Translations under genes and position numbers: made by a program | The notes under the pieces: model-generated | The model's input: the letters and a program-made list of their open reading frames with translations, nothing else | What the model was told of the DNA's origin: nothing | Databases searched by the model: none | Shown here: positions 1-8,154 of the stretch, one piece after another | Numbering within the stretch: position 1 is the stretch's first letter | Layout: every line of letters begins with the position of its first letter | Assembly (NCBI GenBank): GCA_004367505.1 | Contig: SFCB01000110.1 | Span: 1 to 55,189 of the forward strand | Source of the DNA: Chloroflexi bacterium OHK40 | Lineage (GTDB): Bacteria > Chloroflexota > Chloroflexia > Chloroflexales > Chloroflexaceae | Length of the DNA stretch: 55,189 bases | Reading direction: 5' to 3'

Positions 1-102
1 CAGCCGTGCGCCACGCAGCGGAGCACGCTCCCTGCGTACGACTTGCATGCATTAGGCACGCCGCCAGCGTTCGTCCTGAGCCAGGATCAAACTCTGCGTT
101 GT
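1..102 (-). rRNA. rrs: 16S rRNA, 5' end (partial)
   Basis: The complement of the universal bacterial 27F site (AGAGTTTGATCCTGGCTCAG on the minus strand) lies at about 76-95. It is followed, reading leftwards, by the usual GACGAACGCTGGCGGCGTGCC start of bacterial 16S rRNA. The gene runs off the left edge of the window. The mature 5' end is set about 7 nt upstream of the 27F site by analogy with E. coli and is approximate. The transcript is fed by the two promoters at 339-367 and 566-594. Confidence 0.97.
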
Positions 103-200
103 GTGAATGAAGCCTGAGTCTCCTCAGACCTACCCACGTCGTGGACCCTCGTACATCATCACGGTTCAGTTGTTCAGGTGCGCGCCCGAGGTTCTGGCCG

Positions 201-274
201 ACAAAAAACCAGGCGGCGGGTTGCCCCTCCGACCTGGCGACGTCTCCGGTTTGTCACCGGCGCGGTTCGCTTGT
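201..274 (-). repeat. 74-bp direct repeat, copy proximal to 16S
   Basis: This 74-bp stretch is repeated at 428-501 with a single mismatch (g at 231 versus a at the matching position). The offset is 227 bp, the same as the offset between the two rRNA promoters. On the minus (transcribed) strand it holds a CCGG/CCGG hairpin followed by the terminator-like hairpin at 203-237. It lies in the rRNA leader between promoter P2 and the 16S gene. Confidence 0.97.
203..237 (-). terminator. Terminator-like hairpin with U6 tract in rRNA leader (copy 2)
   Basis: In the transcript the arms CCAGG and CCTGG close an inner GG-A-GGG/CCC-G-CC stem capped by GCAA, followed directly by six U. This is the form of an intrinsic terminator, yet it sits between promoter P2 and the 16S gene. 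It may act as an attenuator, a site for rRNA antitermination, or a processing structure. The sequence shows the structure only; function is inferred. Confidence 0.75.
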
Positions 275-299
275 CGAGCCTGTTCCCTCGGTTGTGGAA

Positions 300-322
300 G
301 TCTACCTCTCGAGGAGTGAGAC
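300..322 (-). promoter_or_regulatory. Leader hairpin, copy 2
   Basis: The minus-strand transcript carries GTCT...AGAC arms around an inner CTC/GAG-rich stem. It is nearly identical to 529-551 and stands just downstream of promoter P2, so it would be at the 5' end of the P2 transcript. Both promoters are followed by this hairpin and then by the 74-bp repeat. Confidence 0.7.
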
Positions 323-338
323 TTTCAGCACTCAGCAG

Positions 339-367
339 AGTATAACACATTCTAGCTAGCTGTGCAA
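339..367 (-). promoter_or_regulatory. rRNA promoter P2
   Basis: On the minus strand there is TTGCAC, a 17-nt spacer and TATACT, a near-consensus vegetative-sigma promoter. The -35 box is at 362-367 and the -10 box at 339-344. The start point would be near 332, about 230 nt upstream of the 16S 5' end. The -35 and -10 hexamers and the spacing are identical to those of P1. Confidence 0.85.
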
Positions 368-427
368 CTAGTATGTGTTAGAACTTTACTAGCGTGCTTG
401 TACAAGTTGTCCAGGAGGAGCACCCCC

Positions 428-501
428 ACAAAAAACCAGGCGGCGGGTTGCCCCTCCAACCTGGCGACGTCTCCGGTTTGTCACCGGCGCGGTTCGCTTG
501 T
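428..501 (-). repeat. 74-bp direct repeat, distal copy
   Basis: This is the second copy of the 201-274 element, with 73 of 74 positions identical. It lies between promoters P1 and P2, so it would only be part of transcripts started at P1. Such a transcript would carry both copies. Confidence 0.97.
430..464 (-). terminator. Terminator-like hairpin with U6 tract in rRNA leader (copy 1)
   Basis: It has the same CCAGG/CCTGG-closed hairpin and six-U tract as 203-237, here between P1 and P2. If it were an efficient simple terminator, P1 could not contribute to 16S transcription. Either it is read through by an antitermination complex or it is conditional. Confidence 0.75.
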
Positions 502-528
502 GGGTCCGAGCGCCTCTCGACTTGTCCG

Positions 529-551
529 GTCTGCCTCGCGAGGAGTGAGAC
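529..551 (-). promoter_or_regulatory. Leader hairpin, copy 1
   Basis: This is the counterpart of 300-322, placed just downstream of P1. The inner arms CCTCG and CGAGG are fully complementary and the outer arms GTCT and AGAC pair. Conservation of this element, while the sequence between it and the 74-bp repeat differs, suggests it is selected. Confidence 0.7.
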
Positions 552-565
552 CACCAACGCGGCGC

Positions 566-594
566 AGTATAGCACTGGCATGGGGTTTGTGCAA
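566..594 (-). promoter_or_regulatory. rRNA promoter P1
   Basis: On the minus strand there is TTGCAC, a 17-nt spacer and TATACT. The -35 box is at 589-594 and the -10 box at 566-571. Both boxes and the spacing match P2 exactly although the spacer sequence differs. Tandem promoters are usual for rRNA operons. Confidence 0.85.
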
Positions 595-2179: not shown

Positions 2180-3154
2180 CTAGCCTTGCAGGTAGGCCCA
2201 CCAGAGCCTGTCGGCAATGGCGTGGGCGTCAGCGCGGGCCCCGAAGGGAGCGAGCGCCGCGACGACCCGCGCTACGTCGCGGGCCAGCAGGGCGCGGGCA
2301 TCGTCGCCGTGGCGCGGATCGACCGCCTGGGCGAAGTCGATGAGATAGGCCTGGCCCTCCCAGGCCAGGATGTTGTAGACCGAGAGGTCGCCGTGGATGC
2401 GATGAGCGCCGAGCAGGCGCTCGATATCCTCCAGGAGCCCGTCGAGGAGATCCTGGGCGACGCCCCGATCGACCTCGATCTCAGCGAGTCTCGGCGCGAC
2501 GGTGTGGGCATCGCCGATGTAGGCCATCAGCAGGCCATTGCCCGTCTGGGCGTAGGGCCGGGGCGTGCGCACGCCAAGCCGGTAGGCGAGCTCCTGGGTG
2601 GCATACTCGTAGCTGATCCAGCTGGAGACCTGGAAGGCTCGGCCTTTTGCACTCGCCCGGCTCGGGATGCCTTTGCCAGTGAGCTTGACCTGCTTGCCCG
2701 ACTCGTTGCGGACCGTGCGGCCCTCGCGGTAGACGGCGTCGTTGCTGAGGCTCCGGAACATGCGCGGCCGGTAGATCTTGGCCGCCAGGAGCTCGGCGCC
2801 GCTGGCCGGCCCGCCACTGCAGCAGAAGACCGTCGCCTCTTTGCCGCTCTTCACTTCGCGCAGCACATCGGTGATCAGTTCCTGCTCGTAGAAGCTGGTG
2901 AGCGATGAGAGTACCCAGGGGCCATCACGCCGGCCAACCAGCGCATCGGGCGCGAAGGGCGCTCTGGCGCCCTCGCCCTCGCTGGACTCGCGCAGCCAGC
3001 GCTGCACATCAGCGTTGGACTCGAAGCTTTGCTTGGCGACGCCGGCACGGGCCTGAGCCTTGCGCTGCTTGTGGGCCTTGAAGCGGGTGCCGTAGGCCGG
3101 CGTCTCGTCATCGGGGTCGTCCCAGGGGCCAGGAATGATCAGATTGCGCGTCAT
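2180..3154 (-). CDS. RIO-type Ser/Thr protein kinase
   Basis: A 324-aa cytoplasmic atypical protein kinase of the RIO1 family. It has a P-loop-like KSGKEATVF segment, an AAKIYRP strand with the ATP-binding Lys, the catalytic loop HGDLSVYNIL and the metal-binding LIDFAQAVD motif. I set the start at the ATG (3154) that opens MTRNLIIPG, since GAGGAG lies 4 nt upstream. A longer frame to 3262 adds 36 low-complexity residues. Bacterial RIO kinases are poorly characterised; roles in ribosome maturation are known for the archaeal and eukaryotic members only. The N-terminal 90 residues are charged and likely disordered. The neighbour pth also serves translation, but there is no operon link. Confidence 0.9.
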   Translation of the reverse strand: MTRNLIIPGPWDDPDDETPAYGTRFKAHKQRKAQARAGVAKQSFESNADVQRWLRESSEGEGARAPFAPDALVGRRDGPWVLSSLTSFYEQELITDVLREVKSGKEATVFCCSGGPASGAELLAAKIYRPRMFRSLSNDAVYREGRTVRNESGKQVKLTGKGIPSRASAKGRAFQVSSWISYEYATQELAYRLGVRTPRPYAQTGNGLLMAYIGDAHTVAPRLAEIEVDRGVAQDLLDGLLEDIERLLGAHRIHGDLSVYNILAWEGQAYLIDFAQAVDPRHGDDARALLARDVARVVAALAPFGARADAHAIADRLWWAYLQG

Positions 3155-3522
3155 ACGCTCCTCAACACTGCAAGGAATCACGACAGCGACCGAAGACCTC
3201 TGAGAGGCATCTGGCCGCTGTGGCGCAGGTGAGGCGCGTCGGGCAGGGAGCGACCGGATCACGCAGCCCTGCCGCTTTCACGGCAGGCCTTGCTCCGGCA
3301 CCTCCAACCCATCAGGCTCAGGGAAGCGCTAGGGATCAGCGGGACATGCAGGCCCACTCAGAGGTAGTGGCGGTGGTTGTGTAGCTACCCATGAGACCTC
3401 CTTTTGCGCCTGCAGGCAGTTCATTCCGGGGCTGAGTGTAGCCGAGCTCGGGGGAGCAGCGCATCGGGCTTGAGGCGGAGGGCGGAGGCACCCGGCCCCC
3501 CCTCCGATTGGCAGCCCACCCG

Positions 3523-4605
3523 TTATGCCGAGAGGGTATAGCGCACGTACTCTTGCTGGCAGGGCGGGCCGTCGGTGAGGTAGAGCGCCCCCGCGTGCAG
3601 ATCCATCACCACCGAAACCACGCTCTCATAATGCTCCTCGGGCGGCTCAGCCGGGTCGATGTGAAAGCAGACCGAATAGGGGTGGCCCTGGTGGTCGCGC
3701 AAGGCGGCCTGGATGTCGGCGAGGGCGAGCGGACGTTCTGTGGCGAGCAGGGCCTCCAGGCGGGCCAGGCGGTGGTAGGAGTGCAGATTCGGCTCGACAT
3801 TGCGCTCACGCACGCCGAGAACCGCCGGATCGATGAAGTGGTTGCTGTGTACCAGGCACCCTCCCGAACAACGCCTGGCCACCGCACTGCCGGGGGCGGT
3901 TTCGATATTCAGAGCGCGACCGGGGGTCTGAGCGAGCAAGAAGTTCGCGGAGCAGGAACGATCCTCACCGGTCACCACGCGCGCGGCCACATCCAGGTCG
4001 GCGCTGCGCAGGATCTCGTAGCAGCGGGTATGGAAGGGCCGCCGCAGCCGCGACCAGTCGTCGTCGTGAGAGGTGAGGCCGTTGATGGCGAGGCCAAGGC
4101 CCCGTGAGCTCAGGCCGATCTTGCCGCCGAAGATCCCGGCCTCGCTGAAGGCGAGGGTCTGCAGGCCATCGGCCTCGCGCGTGTGGAGCACAGCACCGCG
4201 CACACCGGCGATCCAGTCCCAGTTCTCGCCGAGGTAGAGATGGCCGTCGGCGGTGGCGTCGGGCAAGATCGCGAAGGCGGTGCAGCCATCGGGCAGCGGC
4301 TTTTCGACGAACTCATCATAGAACAGCTCGTAGCGCACGTTGAGCGCCGCGATAGAGGCGAAAGCGAAACCCGAGCCCTCGGCGATGCCGCGCATCCCGG
4401 CGTGATAGGCGGGGCTCTGGACGGCCAGAGCAGCGGCGTAGCGCTCGGCCCGGGTGAGGGTCTCGGCGCGCGTGAGCTTCAACTCGCGCTCGAAGCGAGC
4501 GAAGTAGAGCTCCAGGTTGTGGCCGATCTGCTCGCGCAGGGCCTCGCCGTGCTGCACACCCTGCTCGAAGGGGGTGCCCTCCAGCCGCACCAGTGGAAGT
4601 GTCAT
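3523..4605 (-). CDS. C45 family acyltransferase/peptidase (isopenicillin N acyltransferase-like)
   Basis: A 360-aa Ntn-hydrolase of the acyl-CoA:6-aminopenicillanate acyltransferase type. The motif DGCTAFAI at 106-113 holds the Gly107-Cys108-Thr pattern at which these enzymes cut themselves to expose Cys as the N-terminal nucleophile. GENWDW and NGLTS, further on, are also family features. There is no signal peptide, so it is cytoplasmic. The ATG start overlaps the stop of the upstream acetyltransferase (TGATG), indicating translational coupling. The substrate is unknown: bacterial homologues are mostly uncharacterised amidases or acyltransferases, and a beta-lactam role should not be assumed. 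A function paired with the GNAT enzymes upstream is likely. Confidence 0.88.
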   Translation of the reverse strand: MTLPLVRLEGTPFEQGVQHGEALREQIGHNLELYFARFERELKLTRAETLTRAERYAAALAVQSPAYHAGMRGIAEGSGFAFASIAALNVRYELFYDEFVEKPLPDGCTAFAILPDATADGHLYLGENWDWIAGVRGAVLHTREADGLQTLAFSEAGIFGGKIGLSSRGLGLAINGLTSHDDDWSRLRRPFHTRCYEILRSADLDVAARVVTGEDRSCSANFLLAQTPGRALNIETAPGSAVARRCSGGCLVHSNHFIDPAVLGVRERNVEPNLHSYHRLARLEALLATERPLALADIQAALRDHQGHPYSVCFHIDPAEPPEEHYESVVSVVMDLHAGALYLTDGPPCQQEYVRYTLSA

Positions 4606-5573
4606 CAGGGCGCCTCTCGCAGTTTGACAAAGGTGATCCATGGGGGGAGCTTCTCAAAACCCAGGGCCTCGTTGATCCGGAGCATGGGCCGGTTGGTCGA
4701 GGCATTGTCGGTCCGGATGAACGGCGCGCCCACGCGGCGCGCATAATCGATGGCCCGCAGCTTCAGGGCCAAAGCGATCCCGCGGTGCCGGTACTCCGGA
4801 TGGGTGGCCGTGAAACCGGTATCGAGCAGGGTATCGGCCTCGCGTCGCCAGAGGCTACTGAGACCGACGTAGCGCTCACCGTCGAGGGCGATGAAGTAGG
4901 CCTCGGGCAGGAGGTTCGGGTTTCCCTCGAAGAACTTCAGCCAGGCTTCGTAGGGCGGAGGGGTGAAGGGCTCTGGCATTGGCACATCGCGCGAGGCGAT
5001 CATATCGAGCTCGTAGAGCTTCGGCCAGACCGGATCACCCGCGTCGAGCAACTCACGCACCGTGGTGATCCGGATGCCACCGGCGCATACCCGCTCCTCC
5101 ACACCAGCGAAGCGCGAGGGATCGAAGCGACGCACGTCCAGCCGCGACTCCCAGGTTCGCATCTCTTCGACGAAGCCGCGTCGCTGGAAGAACCGGAGCG
5201 CATTGGTATAGTCCTCGCGCAGCGTGTTGCGCAGCGCGAGGGGTCCATAGGGCTCTAGCTCGCGCATCAGGCGCTCGTAGAGGGCGCTGCCGATACCCTG
5301 GCGCTGCCACTCGGGATGCACATAGACGCCGACAAAGAACTTCTGCGGGTGGTACATCCAGGGAACATTCTCGTACAGCGCCCCACCGACAGCCACGCCA
5401 TCGAGTTCGGCAACAAAGCGGGCGAAGCGCAGACGCGCCTCGCGCTGCTCGTCCCAACGGCGATACTCAGCGGGGGTAAAGGGGTAATCGGGGTAGCAGG
5501 CCTTGCGGATCGCCGCCAGGTCCTCATAGTCCCGATTGCTCCCCGTGAACGGGCGAATGATGAGGTGTGTCAT
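4605..5573 (-). CDS. Double-domain GNAT N-acetyltransferase (1)
   Basis: A 322-aa protein with two GNAT folds. The N-terminal domain has the acetyl-CoA loop VHPEWQRQGIGSALY (about 85-100). The C-terminal domain has EYRHRGIALALKLRAIDYA and ends in the Asn-rich NRPMLRINEALGF segment typical of mycothiol-synthase-like GNATs. It is the closest in position to the C45 gene and is coupled to it by a stop-start overlap. It is one of three tandem paralogues (4605-7707) that keep the same two-domain layout. The acetylated substrate is unknown. The start at 5573 fits the conserved LIIRPF N-terminus. Confidence 0.92.
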   Translation of the reverse strand: MTHLIIRPFTGSNRDYEDLAAIRKACYPDYPFTPAEYRRWDEQREARLRFARFVAELDGVAVGGALYENVPWMYHPQKFFVGVYVHPEWQRQGIGSALYERLMRELEPYGPLALRNTLREDYTNALRFFQRRGFVEEMRTWESRLDVRRFDPSRFAGVEERVCAGGIRITTVRELLDAGDPVWPKLYELDMIASRDVPMPEPFTPPPYEAWLKFFEGNPNLLPEAYFIALDGERYVGLSSLWRREADTLLDTGFTATHPEYRHRGIALALKLRAIDYARRVGAPFIRTDNASTNRPMLRINEALGFEKLPPWITFVKLREAP

Positions 5574-5686
5574 AGCACCAGCCTGTGTCGAGCAGCTGGC
5601 CGGTTCTGGCGGCCAGGCGACGAGCGCACAAACCGCGAGCCACGGCCAGCTGATAGGGTTCTGACGCGCGCGAGGACTCCGTTATG

Positions 5687-6646
5687 TCAGAGCTGTCTGG
5701 CGTACGACACCCAGACAGGCTGTTTGACGAAGCCGAGGGCCTCGTTGATGCTGAGCATGGGCCGGTTGCGCGTCTCGTTACCGGTACGGATCTCCCGAGC
5801 GCCACGTTGCTGGGCAAAGGCCACCGCCCGCAGCTTCAGGGCCAGGGCGATACCTTTGCGGCGGTAGTCGCGGCGGGTTGCCGTGAGCCCGGTGTAGAGC
5901 ACATCGGGCTCGGCACCGAGCCAGAGCTGGCTCACGCCCGCGATCCGGCCCTCGTGCAGCGCGATGAAATATCCCTCCGGCAGCAGGTTGGGATGCCCAA
6001 GGTGTGTCTTTGCCCACTGCTCAAAACCGGGCGGAGTGTAGGGATCGGGGGAGGGGACATCCCGGGCCATCTCCGTGATCGCCTCGTACAGCGGCGTGCG
6101 ATAGTCGCCGCCTCGATCCATCAGATCGCGCAGCGTGATGATCGTGATCCCCTGGGCAAGAACCTTCGCCGTGTGCCCCTCCCAGGGCGAGGGGTCGAAG
6201 GGGGCGACGGCGAGGCGCGACTCCCAGAAGCGCATCTCCTCGGTATAGCCGTGCTTCTGGAGGAGGTGGATGGCGGCACGATGGTCCTCGCGGGCCTCGG
6301 CGCGCAGCAGGATCGGATTGTAGGGGGCCAGGCGCCCGAGCAGGTGCTCGTAGAGCTGGCCGGCGATCCCGCAGCTCTGGTGGGCCGGGTGGGTGAAGAC
6401 GTCGAGGTAGAACTTCTGGGGGTGGAACATGCCCGACATGTGTGAGAAGCTACCGTAGGCCACGATCTGGCCTTCGCGCTCGGCCACCCAGCGCTCGAAC
6501 ACGCAGTGGGCCGGGCGGGTCTGGTCCCAGTGGTGCCAGTCTTCGACAGTTTCGATGTAATCGGGGAGAGCGGCGTTGCGAACGGCGATTACGGCCTCGT
6601 AGTCGGCGTCGCTGAAGCTGAAGGGGCGGAACTGAAGGTTGTGCAT
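5687..6646 (-). CDS. Double-domain GNAT N-acetyltransferase (2)
   Basis: A 319-aa paralogue of its neighbours. The N-domain has FTHPAHQSCGIAGQLYEHL and the C-domain has DYRRKGIALALKLRAVAFA, ending in NRPMLSINEALGF. In the first loop the usual arginine-glycine pattern is changed (QSCGIAG in place of QRQGIGS), which may weaken acetyl-CoA binding in the N-domain. I prefer the ATG at 6646 because its MHNLQFRPF aligns with the start of paralogue 1. An ATG at 6667 would add seven residues, and neither has a strong ribosome site. The gene is 48 nt from the stop of paralogue 3 upstream, so the two are probably cotranscribed. Confidence 0.9.
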   Translation of the reverse strand: MHNLQFRPFSFSDADYEAVIAVRNAALPDYIETVEDWHHWDQTRPAHCVFERWVAEREGQIVAYGSFSHMSGMFHPQKFYLDVFTHPAHQSCGIAGQLYEHLLGRLAPYNPILLRAEAREDHRAAIHLLQKHGYTEEMRFWESRLAVAPFDPSPWEGHTAKVLAQGITIITLRDLMDRGGDYRTPLYEAITEMARDVPSPDPYTPPGFEQWAKTHLGHPNLLPEGYFIALHEGRIAGVSQLWLGAEPDVLYTGLTATRRDYRRKGIALALKLRAVAFAQQRGAREIRTGNETRNRPMLSINEALGFVKQPVWVSYARQL

Positions 6647-6693
6647 AGGGGTACTGGGAGCCGGCATCCGGACGGGAGAGCCCGGGCGGCGCG

Positions 6694-7707
6694 CTACTCC
6701 TGTTTGATGAGTTTACGGTAGCTGATCCAGACCGGCCGTTTGACGAAGCCCAGGGCCTCGTTGATGCGCAGCATCGGCCGGTTGATCGAGGCATTGCTGG
6801 TGACGAGCCGGCGGAAGCCCCGGCGCCGGGCGTAGTCAATTGTCCGCAGCTTGAGGGCCAGCGCAATTCCGCGACCGCGATACTCCCGCAGCACCCCGGT
6901 GAAGCCCACGTGGAGCTCCGTCGGGTCGCCCTGGTTGGCGCCAAGAGTGCTCATGCCGATGTAGCGATCTCCATCAAGAGCGATGAAGTTTGCCTCGGGC
7001 AGGTAGTTCGGGTCGTCGAACACCCAGGCCTCGTACGTCGCCTGTGGGACTGGCGTGATCGGCTCGGGGTGGGGCTCATCGGCGGTGGCAGCCTGATCGA
7101 GCTCGTAGAGCTTACGGCGGTAGTGCGGGTCGCGTGCCTGGAGCTCAGCCACGGTGGTGATGGTGATGCCACTGGCCAGGGCGCGCTCCTCGGCGCCGGC
7201 AAAGGGTGCCGGGTCGAAGCTGGCCAGCTCGAGGTACGATTCCCAGAAGCGCATATCCTCGACAAACCCGCGCTCGGTGACAAACCGAACCGCACGGGCC
7301 ATATCGGCGCGGACTTCGGCGCGCAGGGAGATCGGGTCGTGCGGCGCCAGCGCGGCAAGGATGTGCCCGTAGAGCGCGCGGCCAATTCCACGGCCCTGGT
7401 GGGCCGGATGGACTGCGAGCGAGAGCCGGAACTTCTGCGGGTGGTACATGCTCTCGGACTGGCCATACTCGCCGAAGCCGACCGCCTCCCCGTTGAGCTC
7501 CGCGATCCAGCGCTGGTGCTTGATGCGCGCCGTGCGGGTGGAGTCCCAGTGGCGCCACTCCTCGACGCTGTCGGGGTTCTCCGGAAAGCAGATATTGTTC
7601 AAGGCCACGACGGCCGCGTAGTCGGCAGCGGTTCCTTCGAAAGCGCGGATGGACAGCCCGCCGGGCGCGGCGCTTGTAGTCGCGTCTGATGGGATGGCGA
7701 GCGACAT
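6694..7707 (-). CDS. Double-domain GNAT N-acetyltransferase (3)
   Basis: A 337-aa protein, first of the tandem set in transcription order. The N-domain has VHPAHQGRGIGRALYGHIL and the C-domain has EYRGRGIALALKLRTIDYA followed by NRPMLRINEALGF. The start at 7707 (MSLAIPSD) has a GAGAAAGGGG stretch upstream; an in-frame ATG at 7791 is less likely. It carries about 20 extra N-terminal residues compared with paralogue 1. The promoter should lie in 7708-7800, where an inverted repeat (7758-7794) is seen. Likely operon: GNAT3-GNAT2-GNAT1-C45 acyltransferase. Confidence 0.92.
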   Translation of the reverse strand: MSLAIPSDATTSAAPGGLSIRAFEGTAADYAAVVALNNICFPENPDSVEEWRHWDSTRTARIKHQRWIAELNGEAVGFGEYGQSESMYHPQKFRLSLAVHPAHQGRGIGRALYGHILAALAPHDPISLRAEVRADMARAVRFVTERGFVEDMRFWESYLELASFDPAPFAGAEERALASGITITTVAELQARDPHYRRKLYELDQAATADEPHPEPITPVPQATYEAWVFDDPNYLPEANFIALDGDRYIGMSTLGANQGDPTELHVGFTGVLREYRGRGIALALKLRTIDYARRRGFRRLVTSNASINRPMLRINEALGFVKRPVWISYRKLIKQE

Positions 7708-8154
7708 GGTTGCTGCCCCTTTCTCGCCCGTGCGGGCTGTGGTGTGCCAGGCCGATTCTGATGAGTACCGCTTCCAAACGTACCGGCTCATCAGCGTTGC
7801 CGTGACAGGCTCTTTGCTGCGATCTGGTGTGTGCGGTCACTTCATTGTAGCGGGGGCCGCGCGGGGCCTTCATCAGTCCGAGGACCCAGACGGGGTGCGC
7901 AATGGGGCCGATATGGGCGAAACACTCGAGCGCCCTCCCGGGGAGCAACCCCGCAGCGGGCGCCCTGTCGCATGCCCGGGTGGCCTGTCGGCGCAAAGTA
8001 GCCACGTTCACAATTGGTAACAGCTGCATAACCGGCAGAGCCTGGATCGACGAACGCCGCCGTGCTACAACAGGCTGGGAAGCGTTGGCCGCCCGTGGGG
8101 CCCACCATGATCGGGCCTCCAGACGAAAGCGGCACGGACAGGAGAGAATCAGCT
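7708..8154. other. Divergent intergenic region, GNAT cluster / lipoprotein
   Basis: This 447-bp region separates the minus-strand GNAT cluster from a plus-strand lipoprotein gene. Apart from the inverted repeat at 7758-7794 I see no tRNA, no clear promoter hexamer pair and no conserved small gene. Confidence 0.4.
7758..7794. promoter_or_regulatory. Inverted repeat upstream of the GNAT cluster
   Basis: The arms CTGATGAG (7758-7765) and CTCATCAG (7787-7794) are perfect inverted copies separated by 21 nt. Just inside them, GTACCG occurs twice. The element lies 51-87 bp upstream of the GNAT3 start. It may be an operator or the stem of a leader RNA. No function can be shown. Confidence 0.45.

Follow-up and report, generated by a model that had tools for sequence, protein, structure and literature searches.

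The 16S rRNA gene at the start of the window, the whole 55,189-nt stretch of contig SFCB01000110.1 from Chloroflexi bacterium OHK40 analysed here, is preceded by two tandem copies of a structured rRNA leader that is conserved in the Chloroflexales. Its terminator-like hairpin would serve as a conditional terminator or a long pause before boxA; I put the probability of this reading at roughly 0.5. The hairpin and its U tract survive with unrelated sequences in different families and lie between the promoter and boxA, and they therefore likely act on RNA polymerase, either as a terminator or as a long pause.

Two promoter-leader modules precede the 16S rRNA gene

Two 227-bp modules, each consisting of a promoter and a leader, lie upstream of the 16S gene on the minus strand of the window. 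Their TTGCAC-17-TATACT promoters at 594..566 and 367..339 are 227 bp apart, and both were recovered by a promoter scan, against 0.5 expected in shuffles. A 77-bp repeat (75/77 identical between 198-274 and 425-501) includes the 74-bp block that was noticed first (73/74 identical), while a second repeat block (300-322 / 529-551) is a GTCT/AGAC hairpin, P1. The order within a module is promoter, P1 hairpin, P2 outer stem, P3 conserved core hairpin, and a terminator-like hairpin with a U6 tract, called P4 or T; the whole leader is thus P1-P2-P3-T-boxA. The terminator-like hairpins (CCAGGTYGGAGGGGCAACCCGCCGCCTGG then TTTTTTGT; stems 464..436 and 237..209) have a GCAA loop, fold at -17.8 (distal) and -19.7 (proximal) kcal/mol, and run into U6 tracts at 435..430 and 208..203. 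A simple consensus terminator scan of the window listed neither of them, because their stems have internal mismatches. The original prediction of a duplicated promoter-hairpin-terminator-like module was right in its coordinates and sequences, as confirmed by the window sequence, the promoter scan, and the repeat alignment. The features are as follows.

566..594, minus strand: distal promoter TTGCAC-17-TATACT (promoter scan and sequence; promoter-to-P1 spacing kept in relatives)
528..552, minus strand: distal P1 hairpin GGUCUCACUCCUCGCGAGGCAGACC (folds at -9.2 kcal/mol; covariation at 6/8 P1 pairs)
498..504, minus strand: distal P2 5′ strand CCCACAA (partner UUGUGGG at 431..425; duplex -26.0 kcal/mol, cognate partner rank 2/38)
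463..497, minus strand: distal core and P3, GCGAACCGCG-CCGG..CCGG-AGACGUCGCC (P3 has 100% of cells paired and double changes in 4/4 pairs)
428..464, minus strand: distal terminator-like hairpin CCAGG..CCUGG and UUUUUUGU (base pairs 100% paired in 38 copies; -17.8 kcal/mol)
425..431, minus strand: distal P2 3′ strand UUGUGGG (duplex test; takes in the 3′ end of the U tract)
339..367, minus strand: proximal promoter TTGCAC-17-TATACT (promoter scan and sequence)
299..323, minus strand: proximal P1 hairpin AGUCUCACUCCUCGAGAGGUAGACU (folding and covariation)
271..291, minus strand: proximal P2 5′ strands CCGAGG (291..286) and GGCUCGACAA (280..271) (duplex -25.7 kcal/mol, cognate partner rank 1/38)
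236..270, minus strand: proximal core and P3, GCGAACCGCGCCGGUGACAAACCGGAGACGUCGCC (alignments and covariation)
201..237, minus strand: proximal terminator-like hairpin CCAGGUCGGAGGGGCAACCCGCCGCCUGG and UUUUUUGU (-19.7 kcal/mol; kept across Chloroflexales)
186..204, minus strand: proximal P2 3′ strands UUGUCGGCC (204..196) and CCUCGG (191..186) (duplex test)
164..181, minus strand: boxA-like sequence GCACCUGAACAACUGAAC (sequence; downstream of the second terminator-like hairpin only)
1..102, minus strand: 5′ end of the 16S rRNA gene, the contig ending inside the gene (RF00177, 70.8 bits, E 9.7e-19)

The stretch that follows P1, ACAACYGAG (294..286 on the minus strand of the window; also in L004, L007, L124, and L156), is similar to the 3′ part of the boxA region that lies further on, ACAACUGAA. 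Together with P1, it may represent an antitermination site that was duplicated in part.

A search of the window's genome with RF00177 found no 16S gene, probably because the contigs end about 100 nt into it, and the 16S starts of this genome were located with a 16S 5′-end pattern instead. Both rrn leaders in the assembly (window 1-102, and the start of contig C54 of this genome, G000) stop about 100 nt into the 16S gene. Thus, the rRNA operons are collapsed or missing in the assembly.

Elsewhere in the window, three consecutive genes with a GNAT acetyltransferase domain lie at 4605-7791 (minus strand), each with two matched stretches for the main family; they are apparently a tandem family. 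The gene at 2180-3262 (minus strand) encodes a kinase-like protein with a RIO domain, whose N-terminal part is extended; it lies next to a peptidyl-tRNA hydrolase gene (1398-1964).

The leader RNA has a conserved structure

In 38 aligned copies of the module, 96% of the cells are standard pairs across P1, the core triloop, P3, and the base of T. Changes on both sides were found in 11/20 pairs, against 3.7 (sd 1.3) in shuffles, and 0/500 shuffles reached this count; when the partners were slid by 1-3 columns, pairing fell to 25-44%. Covariation in relatives, on which the original prediction could stand or fall, is thus present and supports the leader structure. Since the base of T (CCAGG/CCUGG) is nearly invariant, it is uninformative alone. 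The upper part of T is wholly changed in sequence between copies and still folds in every one of them. The alignments contain a conserved core of 26-28 invariant columns, and the P1 loops vary in both sequence and length. Each leader starts from a strong promoter, and P1 sits about 20 nt past the -10 box.

P2 is a separate stem, in which the stretch after P1 pairs with the end of the U tract and the bases after it. Over 38 modules, the cognate P2 duplex has a mean of -15.6 kcal/mol, against -11.5 kcal/mol for non-cognate strands (0/5000 permutations). The two copies in the window have differing but self-consistent P2 stems (CCCACAA/UUGUGGG versus CUCGACAA/UUGUCGG); this is a compensatory change inside one genome. 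The conservation of the U tract is partly structural because its 3′ half pairs in P2. The first 3-4 U residues after the hairpin lie outside P2 in many copies, yet they are conserved.

The module is widespread in Chloroflexales

Is the module common upstream of other rRNA operons? To answer this, 100 related genomes were searched at the DNA level, and 84,980 species genomes were scanned for the module pattern. Chloroflexus, Oscillochloris, Chloroploca, Kouleothrix, and other Chloroflexales have the same module upstream of their 16S genes; the element precedes 16S throughout Chloroflexaceae and also in Roseiflexus/Kouleothrix relatives. Nearly all of the 30 matches in the pattern scan lie upstream of 16S; a Brucella match (L047) has no 16S nearby and was taken as a chance match. 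Viral contigs had no match to the module pattern, and a phage origin was rejected on this ground. With a covariance model, the module was found in 37/82 genomes of the order, a lower bound since draft genomes often miss or cut rRNA operons. The expectation that relatives carry the same module before their rrn operons was therefore borne out. A second rrn leader in the window's own genome (L002) has a single copy of the module.

The fully assembled genomes of three Chloroflexus and one Roseiflexus provide complete sets of rrn leaders, for which every 16S start was taken. All 10 leaders (2+3+3+2) have P1 and a terminator-like hairpin with a U tract before boxA, and both leaders found in the window's genome likewise have P1 and T. 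In Chloroflexus, the type I leader has CCAGG..CCUGG, a GCGAAMCGCG core, and U4GU4 (U6 in other Chloroflexaceae), whereas the type II leader has CUAG-GUCAC..GUGAC-CUAG-U6 without the GCGAAMCGCG core. Roseiflexus has kept P1 and CCAGG..CCUGG-U6, while its core is an ordinary stem, GCGACAG..CUGUCGC. Thus, P1, T, and the U tract persist where the core is absent or rebuilt. Among these genomes (L185-L195: the complete Chloroflexus and Roseiflexus genomes and the window genome), Chloroflexus mixes the leader types in one cell, with one operon of the CCAGG/core type and the others of the CUAG type. The mixture could give rise to operon-specific control.

Two leaders come from records with other labels, L058 (NZ_JXCA02000018.1, labelled Scytonema tolypothrichoides) and L061 (JAAUTF010000039.1, labelled Candidatus Gracilibacteria), and both are Chloroflexaceae rRNA leaders. 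The 16S of L058 is 89% identical to a Chloroflexaceae 16S, and L061 matches a genome placed in Chloroflexaceae. Contamination or misbinning is likely for both records, the 'Scytonema' contig being probably a contaminant.

The element adds an uncatalogued structured RNA family. Searches against Rfam gave no match at E<=1 for the leader region of the window, and for the loci of eight relatives SSU rRNA alone was found at the gathering threshold. Among open-licence PMC papers, none was found on the element, on rRNA leader attenuation, or on Chloroflexus rRNA promoters.

Tandem copies recur in other genomes

The duplication recurs: besides the window, at least five genomes or contigs (L004, L006, L007, L008, and L058) have the promoter and module in tandem. 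The near-identity of the blocks in the window had been put forward as a sign of selection. As stated, this argument is not supported because the fast-evolving P3 loop is identical too. Within a genome, the P3 loop is identical in three pairs (window, 7/7; L004, 6/6; L058, 6/6), while between species mostly 0-3 of the 6-7 positions match. Thus, homogenisation or recent duplication accounts for part of the within-genome identity. In the remaining three tandem pairs the distal copy has drifted, in 2/3 of them also in the core. By the evidence of their conservation between species, and not of the 73/74 identity in the window, the conserved blocks are under selection.

The terminator-like hairpin is kept in most leaders of the order

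A leader was scored as having T when a hairpin of -8 kcal/mol or better, with a U-rich tract directly after it, lies upstream of boxA. By this definition, T is present in 65/73 distinct Chloroflexales leaders, against 6.8% of dinucleotide shuffles; together with the matching structure of the 38 aligned copies, this places the predicted module beyond chance. The hairpins range from about -8 to -22 kcal/mol, most are followed by U6 or U4GU4, and their sequences are wholly different between groups (CCAGG, CTAG, TCGAG, and TCCGC types). T is retained even in families without a recognisable core or P1. A T joined directly to a U tract over such deep divergence is what attenuation or pausing would lead one to expect, or a gate coupled to antitermination.

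A boxA-like sequence resembling GCACCTTNACAACTGA, called from sequence alone, lies upstream of 16S in most leaders examined, and in most of them it is 14-35 nt past the U tract. As far as T only is considered, boxA does not precede the terminator in the 65 leaders whose hairpin lies upstream of it.

P1 is the most widely conserved partner of T, although the link between them is loose: P1 occurs in L123/L137 with no T, while in Herpetosiphon-type leaders T is present and P1 cannot be recognised. The methods used to find P1 are simple, and their counts are too low. Eight of the 73 leaders lack T by the definition above, and at least two of these, L110 and L111, lack both P1 and T; neither is thus essential for making rRNA.

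How far does the trait extend beyond the order? Within the class, a scan of the readable leaders from its other orders found no terminator-like hairpin. Elsewhere in the phylum, a family from a different class (f14; L155-L159) has P1 in 5/5 leaders, against 2% in shuffles. It has the form GAUCUCGUC..GACAGAUC with the same bulge, followed by ACAAC or AAAAC, and it comes after the rRNA promoter. Before boxA, these leaders also have a stem resembling P3 and a hairpin whose U tract is shorter (U3-U5), the tract of L156 being interrupted. P1 is therefore either ancient or convergent.

A possible checkpoint after initiation, and its alternatives

Control of bacterial rRNA synthesis is usually described at initiation, and antitermination then protects elongation. 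If nearly every rrn operon of this mostly photosynthetic order has a conserved T after the promoter and ahead of boxA, a second, post-initiation control point would be implied, in a deep-branching phylum whose bacteria are photosynthetic and filamentous. In the reading favoured here, T would be a working, conditional intrinsic terminator or a long pause, reached about 130 nt after initiation, and RNA polymerase would meet it before a boxA antitermination complex can form. Passage would be set by the state of the polymerase, through factors bound to the polymerase itself or to P1 and the core, so that T may serve as a post-initiation checkpoint on rRNA output. P2 would pair the end of the U tract only after the polymerase has passed, and may mark or stabilise the read-through RNA. 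In the window, this putative gate was duplicated along with its promoter; a transcript begun at the distal promoter would meet two gates, and one begun at the proximal promoter a single gate. The two tandem copies suggest that ribosome production is controlled after as well as at the start of transcription. Against the gate reading, efficient termination in each rRNA leader would come at a high cost.

What would open such a gate? No conserved cis antiterminator was found: in the truncated RNA, from which the 3′ arm of T was left out, the partners of the 5′ arm differ between species. A CUGG near the 5′ end of type I leaders was considered as a partner of CCAG, and was rejected because it is absent in L040, L045, L046, L050, and L055. 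T forms with a mean probability of 0.92 when transcripts cut at the U tract are folded. Since T is this probable and no competing pairing is conserved, a cis attenuator of the classical kind is unsupported. Control in trans is thus favoured; it may be exerted by polymerase-bound factors, or by a protein or a surface of the polymerase that recognises P1 and the core. I know of no such trans factor. Leaders that lack the core, P1, or T exist as natural variants and make the idea directly testable.

The alternative that survives best, possible but on balance unlikely, is a promoter-proximal antitermination signal. P1 and ACAAC, with the core in Chloroflexaceae, would act on the polymerase, alone like the put and EAR RNAs or via a bound factor; T and later terminators would then be ignored, and T would remove unmodified polymerases. 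In its favour, almost all Chloroflexaceae rrn promoters are followed directly by P1, among them upstream promoters that have no terminator (L005, L009, and L015); P1 is also conserved more widely than the core, and no cis antiterminator was found. However, Herpetosiphon-type leaders retain T with no P1 that can be recognised, the L123/L137 leader has P1 and no T, no binding partner is known, and the window's genome and the complete Chloroflexus genomes encode a single NusG. A bolder and doubtful proposal would be that P1-ACAAC near the promoter, elaborated by the core in Chloroflexaceae, reprograms the polymerase, and that the leader terminator upstream of boxA discards the polymerases that were not reprogrammed. 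The rRNA synthesis of Chloroflexota would then be regulated at elongation, by a checkpoint previously undescribed.

It is improbable that the P2-P3-P4 domain is a structural element for pre-16S processing, RNA stability, or 30S assembly, its likeness to a terminator being incidental. P2 does pair the end of the U tract and enclose the hairpins, and leader RNA matters for 30S assembly in E. coli (PMC10250234). The part that is essential there is the leader-trailer helix downstream of boxA (PMC10250234), whereas the domain described here is upstream of boxA. Also speaking against it are the conserved U residues outside P2, and a U tract that stays joined to unrelated hairpin sequences in several families.

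A further alternative, that T ends most transcripts and the leader RNA of roughly 130 nt is itself a regulator, is very improbable. A core with 26-28 invariant columns exceeds the needs of a terminator alone, but Roseiflexus, type II Chloroflexus leaders, and other families retain T with this core replaced or missing. Finally, terminators often flank operons, but it is hardly credible that the hairpins insulate rrn from upstream read-through, since they lie between the rRNA promoter and 16S in essentially every leader and rRNA transcription would stop too.

Comparison with known systems

The E. coli rrn leader (boxB-boxA-boxC, with NusA/B/E/G, SuhB, and S4) shares with the Chloroflexales leader a boxA-like sequence shortly before 16S and a hairpin upstream of it (boxB there, P1 here). 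In contrast, a conserved terminator-like hairpin with a U tract lies between promoter and boxA in Chloroflexales, while the E. coli antitermination elements come right after promoter P2 and no terminator is described ahead of boxA (PMC10250234). The antitermination activity of S4 has been described as specific for Rho-dependent terminators (PMC10931766).

The leader also resembles attenuators and riboswitches in having a conserved folded domain followed by a sequence-variable terminator, like an aptamer with its expression platform. It differs from them in that no conserved alternative pairing disrupts T, the regulated gene encodes rRNA, and the families do not share a conserved core. Pausing or attenuation in the leader of E. 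coli rrnB was reportedly seen in vitro in the 1980s. Multiplied promoter modules are found in mycobacterial rrn operons. The put RNA of phage HK022 and the EAR RNA of Bacillus eps are structured RNAs that start long transcripts and are thought to act on RNA polymerase. The Chloroflexales element is likewise a structured RNA early in a long transcript; unlike them, it ends in a terminator-like hairpin and serves rRNA operons, and it has no Rfam match to any family. The Rfam family Chloroflexi-1 (RF01698) is listed for Chloroflexus aggregans (PMC2864571); it has no match in the Chloroflexus leader loci and is not this leader element.

In the LoaP leaders of the dfn and mln operons of Bacillus velezensis, a small hairpin governs read-through of an intrinsic terminator before the operon (PMC12691694). 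LoaP requires a UNCG-type hairpin and a NusG paralog, whereas the P1 loops of Chloroflexales vary freely. The window's genome (G000) and the complete Chloroflexus genomes have one NusG match each, while some other relatives have a second NusG-like protein. With a single NusG in the former genomes and no UNCG loop in P1, a LoaP system was rejected. In its logic, LoaP is nevertheless the closest of the known systems, since in both a small leader hairpin is followed by a leader terminator before the operon.
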